A DNA stretch of 41,239 nt. Source: Candidatus Methanomicula labiotermitis (lineage in GTDB: Archaea > Thermoplasmatota > Thermoplasmata > Methanomassiliicoccales > Methanomethylophilaceae). Position 1 is the first letter of the stretch. Each line of letters begins with the position of its first letter. The translations under genes and the position numbers were made by a program. The DNA is taken from the NCBI GenBank assembly GCA_009780575.1, contig WQZU01000010.1, positions 1-41,239 on the forward strand, given 5' to 3'. The notes below the pieces were generated by a model. The model had not been told where the DNA came from. It searched no databases and worked only from the letters and a program-made list of their open reading frames with translations. This document shows positions 1,321 to 32,270 of the stretch, piece by piece.

Positions 1321-2826
1321 ATGAACAAATCCGAGATCCATGAGGGATTGAGTCTCAATGAGAAACGACTGCTCGTTGCGCTGAATGACAGCAAACTGCC
1401 GATAAGACTGCACGGTCTGCAGGATTTTCTCATACACGAACTGGACGGGGCGGCATCATGGCTGTCGTTGAAAGGACTGATAGAAATGGATGTGATAACC
1501 TCGGAGGTCATATTCCTTGCAGACAGGAACATTCTGATCGAAGGCCTTCCGGAAAGGAGGGCGCTTAACGCGATAAAAGCTGCCGGAAATTCAATGGATC
1601 TATCCGAACTTGCGGAAAAACTCCCGAACGGCGAAGACAAGATAGCCATAGGCTGGCTGAAGAGAAAGGGACTTGCCGATATCTCCAAGGAAGGAGATCG
1701 GAAGTTCATCTGTCTGACAGAAGAGGGAAGGTCGGCGGCGTCCGGAAAAAGAATGCCGGACGAGGAGTTTTTGAATAGATTGCCAATAAGCAAGGAAGAT
1801 GCGGATCCGTCGCTTCTCAGGGACCTGAAAGGCCGCCAGGGGATCATAGGCGAAGAAATAACAAAAGAACGCCGCGTCTCATCCGTAACCGAATTGGGGA
1901 AAGAGATCATCGCGATGGGCATCGAACTCAGGGAAGAGGTTTCCGGACTGACGGTTGAAATGCTGCAGAGCGGCAAGTGGAAGGACATTGAATTCAGGAA
2001 ATACGATGTGCAGACATTTGCGCCGGCGGTCGCTCCGGCAAAGAAACATCCGCTCTCAAGATTGGCAGACGAAATTCGAAACATATTCGTTCAGATGGGA
2101 TTCACCGAGATAGACGAAGAATACGTGCAGCCGGCGTTCTGGAACATGGATGTGCTGTTCACTCCGCAGGACCATCCCGCCAGAGACCTGCAGGATACGT
2201 TCTACCTTGAGGATCCGGCGTCCATAAGGATAGACGATGAGAAACTCGTGAAGAAGGTCAAAGACATACACGAGACGGGCGGCGGGACCGGATCGGCGGG
2301 ATGGGGCGGCAAATGGTCGCGCGAGAAGGCTGAACAGGCCCTTCTGAGAACGCATACAACGGTCAACACGATAAAGCACATATCAAAGAACCCGAACCCT
2401 CCGGTGAAGGTGTTCTCGTTATCCAGAATATTCAGGAACGAGTCGATAGATTCAACGCATCTTCCGGAATTCACTCAGATAGAAGGCATAATACTCGATG
2501 AGAAAGGCGACTTTGATATGCTCGTATCGGTGGTAAAGGGATTCTACGCCAAAATGGGATTCGATAAGGTGAGAATAAGGCCCGCATATTTTCCTTACAC
2601 GGAGCCTTCTCTGGAAGTGGAGGTGTTCTTCAACGGTAAATGGATGGAACTCGGCGGCGCAGGGATATTCAGGCCAGAGGTGGTAGCACCGTTCGGAGTA
2701 AAGTATCCGGTGCTGGCATGGGGCTTCGGATTCGAAAGGCTGGCTATGCTGAAATGGAATATCCGGGATATACGCGATCTGTACGTAAGCGACATGGATC
2801 TTCTGAAAAAGAACACGATATTCTGA
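1321..2826 (+). CDS. pheS: Phenylalanyl-tRNA synthetase alpha subunit
   Basis: Catalytic alpha subunit of the heterotetrameric PheRS, a class II synthetase charging tRNA-Phe. The 501 residues comprise an N-terminal region with repeated winged-helix-like modules (about 1-140), as in archaeal/eukaryotic PheRS, and a C-terminal class II core. Motif 2 is FRNESIDSTHLPEF (371-384) and motif 3 is GFGFERLAM (468-476). A strong Shine-Dalgarno AAGGTGA (1310-1316) precedes the ATG. It follows trpS by 31 bases on the same strand. The beta subunit gene pheT is not next to it and does not occur in this window, so it must lie elsewhere. Confidence 0.96.
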   Translation: MNKSEIHEGLSLNEKRLLVALNDSKLPIRLHGLQDFLIHELDGAASWLSLKGLIEMDVITSEVIFLADRNILIEGLPERRALNAIKAAGNSMDLSELAEKLPNGEDKIAIGWLKRKGLADISKEGDRKFICLTEEGRSAASGKRMPDEEFLNRLPISKEDADPSLLRDLKGRQGIIGEEITKERRVSSVTELGKEIIAMGIELREEVSGLTVEMLQSGKWKDIEFRKYDVQTFAPAVAPAKKHPLSRLADEIRNIFVQMGFTEIDEEYVQPAFWNMDVLFTPQDHPARDLQDTFYLEDPASIRIDDEKLVKKVKDIHETGGGTGSAGWGGKWSREKAEQALLRTHTTVNTIKHISKNPNPPVKVFSLSRIFRNESIDSTHLPEFTQIEGIILDEKGDFDMLVSVVKGFYAKMGFDKVRIRPAYFPYTEPSLEVEVFFNGKWMELGGAGIFRPEVVAPFGVKYPVLAWGFGFERLAMLKWNIRDIRDLYVSDMDLLKKNTIF

Positions 2827-2845
2827 TATCGGTGAACATCGCGCA

Positions 2846-2926
2846 TCAATCCTTAAGGCAACCTATAGGTACAATAAGAACACCGTCATTGCGTTTGTAA
2901 GCGTATCCGGAAGAATATATTATTAA
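2846..2926 (-). pseudogene. C-terminal remnant of an AAA ATPase/DUF4143 gene
   Basis: Read on the minus strand, about 26 codons ending in TGA at 2846-2848 encode a tail that includes AYKRNDGV and VPIGCLKD. This matches the last residues of the intact ATPase at 29867-31135, which has AYRRKDGV and VPIGCLKN, and the similarity continues a few residues further upstream (LIIYSSGYAY against MILTATEQAY). No ATPase core is present: the coding similarity stops where a palindromic repeat array (2925-2993) begins. The simplest reading is a family member whose body was deleted, leaving its C-terminus joined to its upstream repeats. It sits between the convergent ends of pheS and the wHTH-TPR gene. Confidence 0.7.
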
Positions 2927-2993
2927 TGTATTTTACATTAACATGATAATGTAAATTACATTAACATAATAATGTATTTTACATAAATGTACA
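2925..2993. repeat. Three tandem 23-bp units, each with an AATGTA-N3-TACATT dyad
   Basis: Units start at 2925, 2948 and 2971, exactly 23 bp apart. Each carries AATGTA, three A/T bases, then TACATT; the third copy ends TACATA. Units one and two also share the next bases AACAT. The array directly abuts the DUF4143 ATPase remnant on the side that would be its 5' end. Regularly spaced palindromes of this kind usually bind a dimeric protein repeatedly. Confidence 0.8.
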
Positions 2994-3046
2994 ATATAAA
3001 AACTCACAACTGTAAAAGATAAGACCGGTTTCAGTGCACGTGCCGA

Positions 3047-4300
3047 TCACGGACGGAGGTCACGCGATTTCGAAGCGCATTCTTTTGCTTTATCTGCCAT
3101 CCCCGCGGCGCCGTATGATCTTGCGAGCAACGCATATATCTTTCTTTTTCCCTCGTCTCCGGTGACGCCCAGCGCCTTCGTGAGATAGTTTATCGAAGAA
3201 TCGTGATCGCCGGATACGGCGGCAACGTCCGCCATCTGTATGTATATGCGGTCAAGGCCATTCACAGTCCCGGTCTTCACAACCGCCTCCTTCATTGAAT
3301 TCAGGAGATCCAGCGCCTCTTTCTTATTACCCAGATGTCCGATCGCGCCGGCCGCCCTGAGGTCCACTTCGAATCTGTTCGTTATGCCGACGGACCTTAT
3401 GATCGACAGCGCTTTCGTGTGGTCCCCTTTCTTCATCTCCGCATCGGCCGAATAAAGGAGGCCGAGTTCCCCGTCCATTTCCTTCAAAGCATCGATCATT
3501 GCCGCCGACGCATCGAGATCGCCGGATTCTATGGCAACGGTTATCCTGACGGGTAAGACATCAAGAACATATTTTTCCGGAATGTCCTCAAAGCCTGCGA
3601 GTATATCAAAAAGGTCATCGTTTATGTTATACAGAAGTTTCTCCTTTTCATTTACGACAAGTCTGCATGCATCCCTGATCCTTCCTGCGGATACCAGATG
3701 ATAAAGGCGCTCCTGAACATCATCCCTGTCAAGCCAATAATCGGCGGCGGCGCTGTTCCAGCTGCGTAATCGTTCATCATCCGCCACGGAAAGTATGTTC
3801 TTCTTCACCTGATCGCTCAGGATGATCATACCGTTGACATCCGTAGGTATCACCTGTTTCGCAGTCTCCGGAATGTCTGCGCGCGGAACGGGGCACCTGA
3901 GCACACAAGCCAATCCCAAAGCATCACGGTCCTCTTCATCGACCGATTTCCATATGGTGTCGGGATCACATCTTTTCATGTCGATCATTGGCATTATATC
4001 TATTCCCTCGTCCTTGGCAACCTCTTTCAAATGTTTCGCCTCTTCCAGGCCGGCCGGTGTGAGAGTGTATGATTTCCTTCTTACTTTGCCTCCTTTGATG
4101 TGGCCCTGCCTCTCATCAACTTTACCATTTTCCCTGAGCTTCTTGAGCTCTATCGAAGAATGCGCCCTCGTGATCCTCAATGAGGCGGCGATGCCGTCCT
4201 GTGTGAGGTCCCACGGTATGTTGTAACCGTCATCACACTGCGTTCCGTATCTGCTCAGGTGCAGCACGATCCTCTCGGCGATCGTAAGTTTGGTCATCAT
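3047..4300 (-). CDS. Winged-helix DNA-binding protein with C-terminal TPR-like repeats
   Basis: Predicted archaeal transcription regulator of 417 residues. The first ~90 residues look like a MarR/ArsR-type winged helix: DLTQDGIAASLRITRAHSS resembles a recognition-helix region, followed by a basic wing rich in Lys/Arg (KGGKVRRKSY) and a conserved-looking LTPAGLEEA. The region from about 190 to the end is helical with TPR-like pairs (ALSIIRSVG, EALDLLNSM, SINYLTKALG), suggesting a protein-interaction or sensing module. No effector domain with known chemistry is visible. The start is ATG-ATG at 4300/4297, about 24 bases from a TATA box shared with the divergent dtd2 gene. Its target is unknown; the divergent neighbour is one possibility. 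Confidence 0.75.
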   Translation of the reverse strand: MMTKLTIAERIVLHLSRYGTQCDDGYNIPWDLTQDGIAASLRITRAHSSIELKKLRENGKVDERQGHIKGGKVRRKSYTLTPAGLEEAKHLKEVAKDEGIDIMPMIDMKRCDPDTIWKSVDEEDRDALGLACVLRCPVPRADIPETAKQVIPTDVNGMIILSDQVKKNILSVADDERLRSWNSAAADYWLDRDDVQERLYHLVSAGRIRDACRLVVNEKEKLLYNINDDLFDILAGFEDIPEKYVLDVLPVRITVAIESGDLDASAAMIDALKEMDGELGLLYSADAEMKKGDHTKALSIIRSVGITNRFEVDLRAAGAIGHLGNKKEALDLLNSMKEAVVKTGTVNGLDRIYIQMADVAAVSGDHDSSINYLTKALGVTGDEGKRKIYALLARSYGAAGMADKAKECASKSRDLRP

Positions 4301-26960: not shown

Positions 26961-27739
26961 TCTTCGTCCTCCTCTTCTTTCAGAGCCTCGTCAAGGATCA
27001 CTTCCGTTTTTATTATGTCGGCGCCGCGACCCCTGAAGAAACGGTTCACGTTCTCAATGTCCCGTATCAGCAGTTCTTTTGAATTGAAATGGTCTGCGGT
27101 CATCGCCTGCCCGCAGTCTATGAGGATAGGCTGCCCGTCCATCATCAGGATATTATATTCGCTCATGTCGCCGTGCACAAGATGCGCATCACGGTAACCG
27201 TCTATTATGAACGATATGATCTCGTCATACGTTTCGTCAGGATCTTCAAGGACAACATCCTTCAATTGCGGCGAAGGTCCGTATTCATCGCCTATGAATT
27301 CCATCACAAGGCAGTTCTTACTGAACGTTATCGGTTCCGGGACGGGTATCTCCGCATCGTAATATCTTTGAAGGTTACGGTATTCCTTGTTCGCCCAGGC
27401 GTATATCATCTTCCTTCTGTTACCGGTCAGCCCCTTGAACCTCGGGTCGCCCTCGATGTACTTCCTTACATGTTTGAACGTTGACGTCGACGTTCTGAAT
27501 ATCTTCAGCGCGATCGGATCTCCGTCCTCGTCTTCCGCATAGAACACGTTTCCCTCCTTTCCCGTGGATATCGGGAATTTCACGGAATCGATGACCCCCG
27601 AGGTCATGAGATCGTACAGGGTCATCAGCGTCTGTTTATCGAAGACCTCGTCGACCGTCTGTCTTTCGTCTCCGGTCTTATTGGTCTTGAGCGCATCGAC
27701 ACGCGCCTCCAAATAAGAATACATCTCGTCGTATGACAT
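26957..27739 (-). CDS. rio1: Serine protein kinase Rio1
   Basis: Atypical RIO family kinase/ATPase linked to late small-subunit maturation. The 260-residue protein has the nucleotide loop STGKEGNV (58-65), Lys79 in ALKIFRTS, the catalytic VHGDMSEYNIL with Asp191, and the metal-binding IDCGQ with Asp208. STGKEGNVF and the following RIO1-type RKYIEGDPRF separate it from Rio2, which has an N-terminal winged helix missing here. The C-terminus is acidic. It follows the aIF1A gene by 13 bases and overlaps the KH protein gene. Confidence 0.95.
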   Translation of the reverse strand: MSYDEMYSYLEARVDALKTNKTGDERQTVDEVFDKQTLMTLYDLMTSGVIDSVKFPISTGKEGNVFYAEDEDGDPIALKIFRTSTSTFKHVRKYIEGDPRFKGLTGNRRKMIYAWANKEYRNLQRYYDAEIPVPEPITFSKNCLVMEFIGDEYGPSPQLKDVVLEDPDETYDEIISFIIDGYRDAHLVHGDMSEYNILMMDGQPILIDCGQAMTADHFNSKELLIRDIENVNRFFRGRGADIIKTEVILDEALKEEEDEE

Positions 27740-28120: not shown

Positions 28121-28229
28121 CATTCTCGTGCCTGAGCCATGAAAATGCACTCCGTATGTGCGATTCATCATATCCGGTTTCCGAATTGATGTAATAAACA
28201 GGAGGTAAACAACAACCATATTTTCGTTA

Positions 28230-28304
28230 TAGGTGTATTAAATAGGATTCAATAATTTGATGTAGGTGTATTTCACGATCATACGCAATTTAATATAGGT
28301 GTAT
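28230..28304 (+). repeat. Three TAGGTGTAT repeats spaced exactly 33 bp, upstream of ATPase gene 1
   Basis: The 9-base core TAGGTGTAT starts at 28230, 28263 and 28296. The flanking bases are partly conserved: copies one and three continue with AAATA and are preceded by AT. The last copy overlaps the end of the probable TATA box TTTAATATA (28289-28297), and the ATG of the ATPase gene follows at 28328. The position at the promoter suggests an operator array. Confidence 0.85.
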
Positions 28305-28327
28305 CAAATAACTTACTGGATGGCATA

Positions 28328-29671
28328 ATGATAATCTTCAGAAGAAAGATCTACGACAAGATCTCCGAATGGAAAGAACACTACGGAGGAAAGTACGCGC
28401 TCCTGATAGAAGGGGCCAGGCGCGTCGGGAAGACCACAGCGGTAAAACAGTTCGTTGAGAACGAGTACAGATCGTCCATAATAATAGATTTCTCTAAAGC
28501 CGACAAGGAGATCAAAGATCTGTTCAGACATCATGCCGAGGACCTCGATCGGTTCTTCCTGTACTTACAGCAGATGTACAAGACCGTACTGTATGAGCGC
28601 GAGAGCGCCGTCGTATTCGATGAAGTACAACTGTTCCCGCTGGCTAGACAGATGATCAAACACCTGGTCGCCGACGGACGATATGATTACATCGAAACAG
28701 GCTCGCTTCTGTCCATAAAACAGAATGTCTGTGACATACTGATCCCTTCCGAGGAGATGTCCATAAGCATGCATCCTATGGACTTCGAGGAGTTTCTGTG
28801 GGCTCAGAAGGATGAAGTGACAGTACCGCTGCTTAGAAAAGCATTCGAAGACCGCGTTCCTCTCGGCCCCGGTATGCACAAGCGCATAATGGACACGTAC
28901 AGCATCCATATGCTCGTTGGCGGCATGCCGCAATCGGTGGAGGCATATCTGGAAAAGAAAAACTTTGAAGCCGTTGAGACGGTTAAACGCATGATATTGA
29001 AACTGTATGCCGACGACACATCAAAGATCAAAATAGATCGCGGATCCAAGTCCAAACGTATTTTATTCATGATACCCTCGTTCTTATCCAAACACAAGAA
29101 GACATTCAGTCCGTCTCAGCTGAGAAAGGGTTCAAAGACCCGTGAGTACTTCGACAGCATCACATGGCTGAATGAATCAAAGATCGTGAACATGTGCTAC
29201 CGTAACAGCGATCCGAGCCCCGCTCTGAATCTTAATCTCGATGAACACACATTCAAAATATATATGGCGGACACGGGGCTGCTTATAACGGCATCATTCA
29301 ATTCTAACGTAGGGGACCGTGATGAAATCTATAGAGACATCCTGAATAACAGAATGAAGATCAACAGAGGCATGTTCTTCGAGAACATGATCGCTCAGGA
29401 ACTTGTATCAACGGGACACAGACTTGTGTTCAGTAAATTTTCTGCCGAAGATTCTGCGAACATGCAGGAAGTGGACTTCATAATTGCAGACGGAAGGAAG
29501 ATGATCCCGATCGAAGCGAAATCCGGTGTGTCGAACAGACACGCGTCCCTTGATCGTTTTATGGACAGGTTCTCTTCCGCAATGGATATAGGATACGTGG
29601 TCCACTCCAAAAACCTCAGAGCGGACGGAAACTTAGTGTATATACCCATATACATGACCATGTTCCTGTAA
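28328..29671 (+). CDS. AAA ATPase with DUF4143/PD-(D/E)XK-like C-terminus (copy 1)
   Basis: 447 residues. The AAA core has Walker A GARRVGKTT (29-37), Walker B VVFDEVQ (95-101) and a sensor-like ETGS (123-126). The C-terminal DUF4143 part contains EVDFII (from 381) and PIEAKSG (395-398 for IEAK), the D...ExK spacing of PD-(D/E)XK folds. Such proteins are common, often multicopy, in archaea and bacteria; their function is not settled. The start at 28328 has no Shine-Dalgarno but lies about 35 bases after a TATA-like box within a TAGGTGTAT array. It stands alone, back to back with the translation operon and convergent with copy 2. Confidence 0.85.
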   Translation: MIIFRRKIYDKISEWKEHYGGKYALLIEGARRVGKTTAVKQFVENEYRSSIIIDFSKADKEIKDLFRHHAEDLDRFFLYLQQMYKTVLYERESAVVFDEVQLFPLARQMIKHLVADGRYDYIETGSLLSIKQNVCDILIPSEEMSISMHPMDFEEFLWAQKDEVTVPLLRKAFEDRVPLGPGMHKRIMDTYSIHMLVGGMPQSVEAYLEKKNFEAVETVKRMILKLYADDTSKIKIDRGSKSKRILFMIPSFLSKHKKTFSPSQLRKGSKTREYFDSITWLNESKIVNMCYRNSDPSPALNLNLDEHTFKIYMADTGLLITASFNSNVGDRDEIYRDILNNRMKINRGMFFENMIAQELVSTGHRLVFSKFSAEDSANMQEVDFIIADGRKMIPIEAKSGVSNRHASLDRFMDRFSSAMDIGYVVHSKNLRADGNLVYIPIYMTMFL

Positions 29672-29866: not shown

Positions 29867-31135
29867 TCAGTTCTTGAGACAACCTATCGGCACATTATAT
29901 ACGCCGTCCTTGCGCCGGTATGCCTGCTCTGTGGCCGTGAGGATCATCATGAATGACGGTTTTCCCATTTTATCCATGTCAACCTTCTCCTTGAGTTTTA
30001 TAAGATTCTTTACACCTTTCTCTATCTCGTCCGCACCCATCTTTATCTCTGCGGCGCCCCATCGGCCGTCCGCTAGTTCTATTATCGCATCCACTTCCAG
30101 ACCGCTGGAATCCCTGTAATGGAACACTCTGCCGTCAAGCGCCTGCGCATACACACGGAGATCACGGATGCACAATGATTCGAACAGCAATCCGAACGTC
30201 TCGAAATCATCTATCAACCGTTCCGGCGTTGCACGGATGGCGGCGGCCGCAATACTAGGGTCGGCAAAATGCCGTTTGGAAGAACTTCTTAAAACGGTCT
30301 TGGAACGCATCGACGGGCTCCATGCCGGAAGATCCTCTGTGACAAATGTGCGTTCCAACGCATTCATGTACGTTATAAGGGTCGGCACGGAGACAATATT
30401 ATCCGCATCTCCGCTGACATCCTTCTGCAACGTTGTCATCTTTGCCTCCGTTGACACATTCCTGGCCAATGAGTGCAACAGTTTGCGGACACGCACCGGA
30501 TCCCGTTTAACACCGTCAACGCGTGAAAGGTCCGAGTCTATGATGCTTTTCAGATAATTCTGCGAATGCCGTAAAGCTATGGATCCTTCCTCTCCTATGG
30601 CTGCGGGCCATCCTCCTCTGGCCAATGCGAATGCAAGATCGTTTATTGTGAGCCTTGACATCCCTTTGATGTCCTCTCCGCCAAAAAGGGATGACAATGA
30701 GACGCTGCCGTCGGATTCCTGCGATTCGAACAGTGACATCGGTCTCATGTATATCCTTGATATGCGGCCGGTACCGGAGTGCATAGGTCTATCCTTATCA
30801 TTCGGTACTGCCGAACCCGTCAATATGAATTGCCCCCATTCACTTCCTTGGTCTATGATGAATCGTATGCCGTCCCATAGGATGGGTGCGTCTTGCCACT
30901 CGTCAATAAGGCGCGGTTTCTCCCCTTCCAGTAAAGCATTTGGGTCCGAGTCCAGCATATGAAGATAATACTTCCTCTTCTTGGTGTCCTGAAGGTACAG
31001 GACGCTGGCCGCCCGTTCTTCGGCAGTACGTGTTTTCCCACACCACTTCGGGCCTTCTATAAGCACCGCACCGGAAGATCTGAGTGTAAGGTCCAATTCC
31101 TTGTCTATGACCCTTGGCAAATATTCCCGTTTCAT
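29867..31135 (-). CDS. AAA ATPase with DUF4143/PD-(D/E)XK-like C-terminus (copy 2)
   Basis: 422 residues, same architecture as copy 1 but only distantly similar. Walker A is GPKWCGKTRT (28-37), Walker B is RLIDEWQ (75-81) and the sensor is LTGSA (105-109). The C-terminal nuclease-like block has EVDAII (from 347) and AEIKMG (EIK at 363-365). It ends AYRRKDGV...VPIGCLKN, the family's usual tail, almost identical to the remnant beside pheS. A TATA-like GATATACC about 25 bases before the ATG suggests a leaderless transcript. Four 23-bp-spaced repeats lie upstream (31188-31279). It is convergent with copy 1. Confidence 0.88.
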   Translation of the reverse strand: MKREYLPRVIDKELDLTLRSSGAVLIEGPKWCGKTRTAEERAASVLYLQDTKKRKYYLHMLDSDPNALLEGEKPRLIDEWQDAPILWDGIRFIIDQGSEWGQFILTGSAVPNDKDRPMHSGTGRISRIYMRPMSLFESQESDGSVSLSSLFGGEDIKGMSRLTINDLAFALARGGWPAAIGEEGSIALRHSQNYLKSIIDSDLSRVDGVKRDPVRVRKLLHSLARNVSTEAKMTTLQKDVSGDADNIVSVPTLITYMNALERTFVTEDLPAWSPSMRSKTVLRSSSKRHFADPSIAAAAIRATPERLIDDFETFGLLFESLCIRDLRVYAQALDGRVFHYRDSSGLEVDAIIELADGRWGAAEIKMGADEIEKGVKNLIKLKEKVDMDKMGKPSFMMILTATEQAYRRKDGVYNVPIGCLKN

Positions 31136-31187
31136 CGATAAAGAATCTTTTTATGGTATATCAATCTATTTGGATTTTGCCCATCAA

Positions 31188-31279
31188 CTTTAAGGTTTGA
31201 TGGACTTTTGCTTTAAGATTTGTAGATGTTTCACTTTAAGGTTTGATGGACTTTTGCTTTAAGATTTGTAGATATTTTA
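31188..31279 (-). repeat. Four CTTTAAG-type repeats at exact 23-bp period, upstream of ATPase gene 2
   Basis: On the plus strand CTTTAAG(G/A)TTTG starts at 31188, 31211, 31234 and 31257, always 23 bp apart. Copies one and three have GTTTGATGGA and copies two and four have ATTTGTAGAT, so the array is also two perfect 41-bp repeats (31187-31227 and 31233-31273). It begins about 50 bases upstream of the ATPase start codon on the minus strand, behind its probable TATA box. Confidence 0.9.
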
Positions 31280-31280
31280 G

Positions 31281-31320
31281 TAGAGTAAGAAGAGGGTCTC
31301 ACGACCTCCTTCTTACTCTA
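31281..31320. repeat. 40-base hairpin: 18-bp stem, 4-base loop
   Basis: TAGAGTAAGAAG (31281-31292) is the exact reverse complement of CTTCTTACTCTA (31309-31320). The stem continues through two mismatched positions to GGTC/GACC around the loop TCAC. It lies 56 bases after the end of the unrecognised minus-strand gene and immediately upstream of the repeat array of ATPase copy 2. It could be a terminator, although no T-run follows it on the minus strand, or a structured regulatory or mobile-element end. Confidence 0.7.
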
Positions 31321-31376
31321 CTCAACCGGAATAATTGTTTTTCGGAAGGAAATACCGGGCGGGCAATCTGTATATA

Positions 31377-32270
31377 TCAGCAGAACGGTTGAGCGCACAT
31401 TCGTGATTTTTCATAAAAAATGGGAGGGCGGATGCCCAGGCCGGCCTTATTCCGTCCACTGCTGCGCCAATGTGATGAATTTGGAACCGTTCTGCGCCGC
31501 ATAGACCTCATGAACTCGTTCAGCTCCTTTATGCGTGCGACTTCCGCCGCATTCTCGGCATCAACGTCACCGTATGTGATGAGCGACCAATCGACGTTCG
31601 GCCCTTTCGCCCTCGGGTCTTTGTAGCTGATCATGACCTTCGGCATCAGTTCCTTGTAGCACACGTTCCCTTCATCGTCGAAGAACGCTCCTTCCAGCCT
31701 TCTGCCGTCAGGACCGTTCAGCCTCGCCCAGTCCGCTCCGGTCGGGACGAATTTCTTCGGCGTCATATCCTTGATCCTCTTTATGGACTCCAGCGCTTTT
31801 TCGACGTCGAGTTTTCCGAAATCGTGCCTGCTGAATTCGAACATCCTGAACTGCGTCACCACACTGTCCCGGTAGGCATCCCCCATCGGCGGATCGTCGT
31901 CATCAAGAGTGAAAGGGAAGAGCCTGCGGTTCAGCTCGCCAACGTAATAAAATATCCCGCCAGAGAACTTAAGACTTTTTTTGGGATCTATCTCGCCTGC
32001 TGTATCCCTGTCATTCAGGATCATCATAAGCCGCGCCTTTCCCTTCGGTATGGTGAACGTTCTGTCATTTACGGTATAATCGCCGATGCCGAAGGGATAG
32101 GCCCTCTCGCCTTCCACTTCAAACTTTTCTTTACCGTCCGCTATGGACTTCAATATCGTCTGTTCTATCGCAGATATCACGAACTTACCATCTGGGAAAA
32201 GGTCGATAACGACCGGGAATTCTTCTCTCGTTATCCCTATGTAACAGCCGGAATGCCTCAGAAACTCCAT
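31377..32270 (-). CDS. Unrecognised protein, C-terminus probably frameshifted
   Basis: 297 residues as read; I do not recognise the family. It looks soluble, with a beta-rich N-terminal half (GCYIGITREEFPVVIDLFPD, FSGGIFYYVGELNRRLFPF) and a mixed C-terminal half rich in charged residues (PKVMISYKDPRAKGPN, VDWSLITYGDVDAENAAEV). No signal peptide or membrane segment. AGGTGCGATT precedes the ATG. After about residue 255 the reading becomes Arg/Ser-rich and poor, while another minus-strand frame gives YAAQNGSKFITLAQQWTE and a TAA at 31447-31449. A single-base shift near 31500-31520 would join the two. The gene lies between pgk and the ATPase copy 2 block. Confidence 0.6.
   Translation of the reverse strand: MEFLRHSGCYIGITREEFPVVIDLFPDGKFVISAIEQTILKSIADGKEKFEVEGERAYPFGIGDYTVNDRTFTIPKGKARLMMILNDRDTAGEIDPKKSLKFSGGIFYYVGELNRRLFPFTLDDDDPPMGDAYRDSVVTQFRMFEFSRHDFGKLDVEKALESIKRIKDMTPKKFVPTGADWARLNGPDGRRLEGAFFDDEGNVCYKELMPKVMISYKDPRAKGPNVDWSLITYGDVDAENAAEVARIKELNEFMRSMRRRTVPNSSHWRSSGRNKAGLGIRPPIFYEKSRMCAQPFC

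Follow-up and report, generated by a model that had tools for sequence, protein, structure and literature searches.

A gutted PDC-S01 ATPase locus beside pheS and the private upstream arrays of its intact relatives

PDC-S01 is a very common single-gene candidate for phage defence, as yet unvalidated, in which an ATPase is fused to a PD-(D/E)XK domain (PMC12988326). It has been reported as the fourth most common defence system in prokaryotes, and as the individual locus encountered most often in rumen genomes (PMC12988326, PMC13356809). The intact ATPases of the DNA studied here, a stretch of 41,239 nucleotides from Candidatus Methanomicula labiotermitis (hereafter the window), match PDC-S01 over their full length and share the published fusion of an ATPase with a PD-(D/E)XK-like domain (PMC12988326); unlike the system presented in the main text of that paper, which makes no mention of arrays, they are preceded by private arrays with a period typical of the protein subfamily. 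The closest solved folds belong to the STAND-like archaeal ATPases SSO1545 and PABY2304, although identity is only 13-15%, the TM-score is 0.43, and no array is described for them in the literature searched. The AAA+/wHTH fold also matches Orc1/Cdc6, but with a low TM-score (0.28), and the PDC-S01 family differs from these proteins in its nuclease-like domain and in its copy number, which ranges from 1 to 32 DUF4143 genes in the genomes that have them.

At the origin-recognition boxes of archaeal Orc1/Cdc6 and in iteron-Rep plasmids, the gene of a DNA-binding protein adjoins its own repeat array, an arrangement to which the PDC-S01 gene and its array may be analogous. Toxin-antitoxin and restriction-modification loci encode a protein that binds its own promoter with private specificity. 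Putative self-encoded binding at the PDC-S01 promoter would resemble such operators, but PDC-S01 needs no antitoxin or methylase partner, and its phased arrays are long, reaching 11 units. Literature searches on DUF4143, COG1373, PF13635 and 23-bp repeats, with bioRxiv, most subscription papers and supplements outside their scope, returned nothing on these arrays, of which there may nevertheless be prior notice.

The locus that motivated this analysis lies at 2846-2992 of the window and begins with the C-terminal stub of a class I ('VPIGCL') DUF4143/PDC-S01 ATPase, the body of which is deleted. Specifically, the minus strand of 2846-2920 encodes about 24 codons and a stop codon (2846-2848), and its translation ends in ...SSGYAYKRNDGVLIVPIGCLKD, compared with ...EQAYRRKDGVYNVPIGCLKN at the end of the intact ATPase at 29867-31135. 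In a search of all six frames of the window with a profile of the 23-bp subfamily, the stub shows the class I C-terminal tail at E=3.4e-7 (25.6 bits), with a match confined to profile positions 398-422, and ranks second after the intact gene, whereas reversed-sequence decoys reach E=4.5 at best. The first-pass annotation of this DNA had read the stub as matching the tail of the 29867-31135 ATPase, and these values bear it out: the stub is almost certainly the remnant of an ATPase gene. The same annotation had the stub ending exactly where an array of palindromes begins. The two do adjoin, but they are not directly joined, since some 3-12 bp of AT-rich, TATA-like DNA separate the end base of the array, 2924, from recognisable coding similarity.

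Comparison with relatives reveals how the stub came to its present position. In the window, pheS (phenylalanyl-tRNA synthetase alpha; 1321-2826, plus strand, by Pfam) and the gene of a wHTH/TPR protein (3047-4300, minus strand, by Pfam and relatives' junctions) converge. Their stop codons are nearly adjacent in all seven other genomes of the genus and in the further relatives of the family and order whose junctions were read, and neither an ATPase nor an array lies between them in any of these. Because this junction is empty in relatives, the roughly 219 bp that carry stub and array in the window (2844-3062, delimited by relatives' junctions with boundaries read from the sequence) are a lineage-specific insert, and this lineage acquired the ATPase locus before the body was deleted. 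An ancestral ATPase at this site is thereby rejected. Copies of CGCG flank the insert at 2840-2843 and 3063-3066, possibly as a 4-bp target duplication, and the stop codon of the stub lies 2 bp from the left edge. At the insert the wHTH gene has lost its original stop, and its reading frame continues to 3047, which extends the C-terminus. An intact ATPase between pheS and the wHTH gene of related genomes, which the first-pass annotation had proposed to look for, was found neither in the seven congeners nor in the other genomes read; this does not refute the remnant, because the whole insert is specific to one lineage.

The interval from the gene at 27733 to PGK tells a similar story: two ATPases occupy it in the window, and the relatives read have a short interval there or, in one case, one filled with non-ATPase sequence. 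In one relative (L274, G003:C41), the ortholog of the 27733 gene and PGK enclose about 1 kb of other coding sequence, and a membrane-like protein and a short HTH protein are among its products. Another related genome (L104, G002:C29) has a decayed locus in which two stop codons interrupt a DUF4143 gene that follows an intact array, a perfect 32-bp repeat in about 3.6 copies. Given the ATPase-free sites at both junctions and this decayed gene, gain and loss of ATPase loci, as surmised earlier, are well supported.

The intact genes of the window indicate what the lost locus may have looked like. The class I ATPase (29867-31135, minus strand; Pfam, PADLOC and AlphaFold2) combines AAA_14, a wHTH and a DUF4143 PD-(D/E)XK-like domain, matches PADLOC PDC-S01 at 4.5e-65, and has a private array with a period of 23/46 bp (31187-31277, minus strand, from repeat finding). 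The class II ATPase (28328-29671, plus strand; Pfam and PADLOC) matches PDC-S01 at 1.4e-98 and follows an array of 33-bp period (28221-28310, plus strand), for which a lag scan (L017) gave lag 33 with a weak score of 12 and the extent was read from the sequence. Both genes contain AAA_14 and DUF4143 at full length. Walker A and B motifs are present in A1 (GPKWCGKT, LIDEWQ), and in the PD-(D/E)XK-like domain the residues E347, D349 and E363 of an ExD...ExK motif are invariant and K365 nearly so.

Such arrays accompany the family at large. The source genome has 23 DUF4143 genes, and across this genome and its relatives a tandem array (score of at least 14) lies upstream of 88 of 126 family genes, compared with downstream arrays at 6 of 116, which supports the earlier claim that the array belongs with the gene family far more strongly than could be known when it was made. 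When family genes were compared with other genes on the same DNA (the window together with the longer named loci and two more), arrays were present at 52/68 and 24/348, respectively; 15 of the 24 control arrays have a lag of 23/46 and are apparently family arrays viewed from a divergent neighbour. The array period tracks the protein subfamily: class I has an array at 33 of 34 genes, always with a period of 23, 24 or 46 bp, class II at 35 of 52 (34 of these at 32-34 bp), and class III at 19 of 31 (all at 38-42 bp). The sequence of the array, in turn, varies from paralogue to paralogue.

The association extends well beyond these archaea. Class I relatives with 48-64% identity occur in Lachnospiraceae, Oscillospiraceae, Treponema, Bacteroidales, Bifidobacterium, Actinomyces, Fibrobacter and others. 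Among such distant loci, 62 of the 77 that are testable have an upstream array, 61 of them at lag 23 or 46, and downstream arrays are found at 3/74; in a further set of 38 class I loci from archaea, 34 likewise have a 23-bp array. Carriage on mobile DNA is rare: only 55 records of plasmids and 6 of phages match. Bacterial arrays often stop just short of a promoter-like -10: 12 of 56 bacterial loci have an exact TATAAT within 50 nt (mean 4.2 and maximum 10 in 500 shuffles), and relaxed 5/6 promoter matches near the array are weakly enriched (40 vs 31.8 expected).

Against this background, the array next to the stub is familiar in its period and unusual in its unit. It consists of three 23-bp units of AATGTA-N3-TACATT (2924-2992, minus strand), presumably the operator array that went with the lost ATPase, with unit starts at 2924, 2947 and 2970; two units are perfect and the third has one mismatch. 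Tandem Repeats Finder reports 2924-2984 with period 23 and 2.7 copies and, together with repeat finding, confirms the three spaced palindromes noted at first pass. The stub locus thus has an upstream array of the class I period. The 89 class I units, however, align to a common skeleton, AAAA-n6-CAAA-n6-AA, in which positions 2-5, 12-15 (CAAA) and 22-23 are rich in A and two stretches vary, and here the stub array scores at the level of its shuffles, as do 7 of the 89 accepted units, which fall within 1 sd of their own. Its unit resembles no other class I unit above chance. A longer three-unit pattern, allowing up to three mismatches, matched only the source genome among 400 genomes of the class, at the stub array and, with three mismatches, at one class I ATPase array; this link is suggestive only, and the likeness fails at the level of the unit. 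Searches of 147 genomes from the order, 400 from the class and viral contigs turned up no intact ATPase with a stub-type array. Of the earlier claim that the array belongs to the lost ATPase, the period therefore stands and the unit sequence does not. The assignment, which rests on position, period and shared insertion for a palindromic unit off the class I skeleton, is nonetheless probable.

The same discrepancy gives substance to the alternative that the stub is a genuine ATPase remnant and the palindromes are the operator of an unrelated transcription factor that lies beside it by chance. A palindromic unit that departs from the class I skeleton speaks for this, and a similar array sits between hisA and hisB in another genome, where it has no adjacent ATPase. 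On the other hand, AATGTA-N3-TACATT sites are confined to the stub locus in the genome, stub and array share one lineage-specific insert, and almost every class I gene has an upstream array at the stub-array period or near multiples of it. We consider a chance neighbour unlikely, with odds of somewhat better than one in five. The hisA-hisB array, in a related genome, comprises three 23-bp-spaced palindromes, RATGTAAWTTACATY (L060 1501-1561; G098:C143:1565-1625), and about 3.4 kb from it there is a class III ATPase. The regulon of a global regulator is not favoured, as the palindrome, with up to one mismatch, is clustered at the stub locus only in the whole 1.37-Mb genome.

If the arrays belong to the ATPases, the proteins might also read them. 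Class I unit and protein co-diverge (Mantel r=0.38, p=0.002). Among 223 variable residues and 23 unit positions in 60 cluster representatives, the top pair is residue 251 with position 20: Lys goes with G (17/19, p=1e-7), Asp or Glu with C (10/13, p=2e-5), and Pro, Val, Leu, Ile, Gln or Ala with A (8/8, p=2.5e-6), where residue 251 was chosen by scanning the very data that gave these p values and the representatives remain related by descent. Some high-scoring pairs of the first residue scan were discarded as nearly invariant columns. Applied out of sample to an archaeal set, the code gave 10 of 22 correct predictions, a small, underpowered and mixed outcome; restricted to 18 well-registered representatives, the test leaned the predicted way at p=0.04 and 0.08. 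A partial Mantel test gives preference to the AAA domain over the wHTH, at odds with the residue scan, and pairwise distances alone do not settle which domain carries specificity.

Structural modelling places residue 251 where such a contact might be expected. In the AlphaFold2 model of the 29867-31135 ATPase (pLDDT 90.6, pTM 0.91), it falls within a predicted helix, 250-262, that is followed by a beta-hairpin wing, and the predicted secondary structure fits an AAA+ domain, a winged helix and a nuclease-like C-terminus, in our naming of the domains. Structure searches match the fold to SSO1545-type ATPases, STAND/NLR-like folds and DNA-bound Cdc6/Orc1. The covariation of residue 251 with position 20 suggests that the class I ATPase probably binds its own array, with this residue of the recognition helix touching position 20.

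As a whole, the observations are best explained, with a probability of roughly 0.6, by a gutted PDC-S01 locus whose intact kin would bind their own promoter array and thereby autoregulate. Under this model, 2846-2992 is what is left of a single-gene PDC-S01 (AAA_14-wHTH-DUF4143) locus that entered this archaeal lineage between pheS and the wHTH gene and was subsequently stripped of almost its entire coding sequence. Intact loci have a private tandem array at the promoter ahead of the gene, and the winged helix of the ATPase would most likely bind it with about one protomer or dimer per unit, so that the protein could assemble along the array and control its own promoter. The fixed A-tracts of each unit may serve as a common grip and the variable words as paralogue-specific recognition, which would keep the many copies in one genome free of cross-talk. 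A change in assembly or ATP state, for instance upon infection, would probably bring the nuclease-like domain into play. Of this model, the remnant, the insert and the ties of arrays to the family and of period to subfamily are demonstrated, recognition of the array by the protein is drawn from covariation, and autoregulation, assembly, nuclease deployment and defence are inference. The promoter-side position of the arrays and the wHTH covariation favour such a self-encoded, autoregulatory operator.

A related proposal accepts array binding and differs in its purpose: the ATPase would guard the array, staying inactive on its own DNA until infection disturbs that DNA, releases the protein and activates the nuclease. 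The place of the family among PADLOC defence candidates, the STAND/NLR-like and Cdc6-like folds among the structural matches and the conserved ExD...ExK motif all suit a guard, but the defence activity of PDC-S01 is unvalidated (PMC12988326), and we regard this purpose as improbable, at about one chance in seven. A reading with slightly lower odds still takes the array for an iteron- or origin-like site at which a selfish element replicates, is maintained or transposes, with the ATPase as its initiator or mover. This would accord with the likeness to Cdc6/Orc1 on origin DNA, the private array upstream of its own gene, horizontal spread, lineage-specific gains and the possible 4-bp duplication, but not with the mostly chromosomal location of the loci, the promoter position of the arrays and the lack of visible terminal repeats or replication genes.

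There is about an even chance that the PDC-S01 ATPases form a self-addressed family across archaea and bacteria, each with its own address array, a period set by the geometry of the subfamily and a sequence read through a decipherable recognition-helix code, with dozens of orthogonal versions in one genome; the window would then capture one of these loci in decay, survived by its address. A private array at nearly every class I gene, its period tied to the subfamily and its sequence to a helix residue, names the likely DNA ligand of each protein, and the mechanism of PDC-S01 thereby becomes directly testable. The arrays may, furthermore, offer a natural set of orthogonal DNA-binding specificities.

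Two further features of the window lie close to its class I ATPase. A search around the gene at 31377-32270, which encodes 297 aa and has no Pfam match, found no clean empty site; the gene is present in three of the eight genomes of the genus, and in two of these three it lies near class I ATPases. Just upstream of the class I array, at 31276-31325, there is an inverted repeat with 23-nt arms and a 4-nt loop (GAGTAGAGTAAGAAG...).
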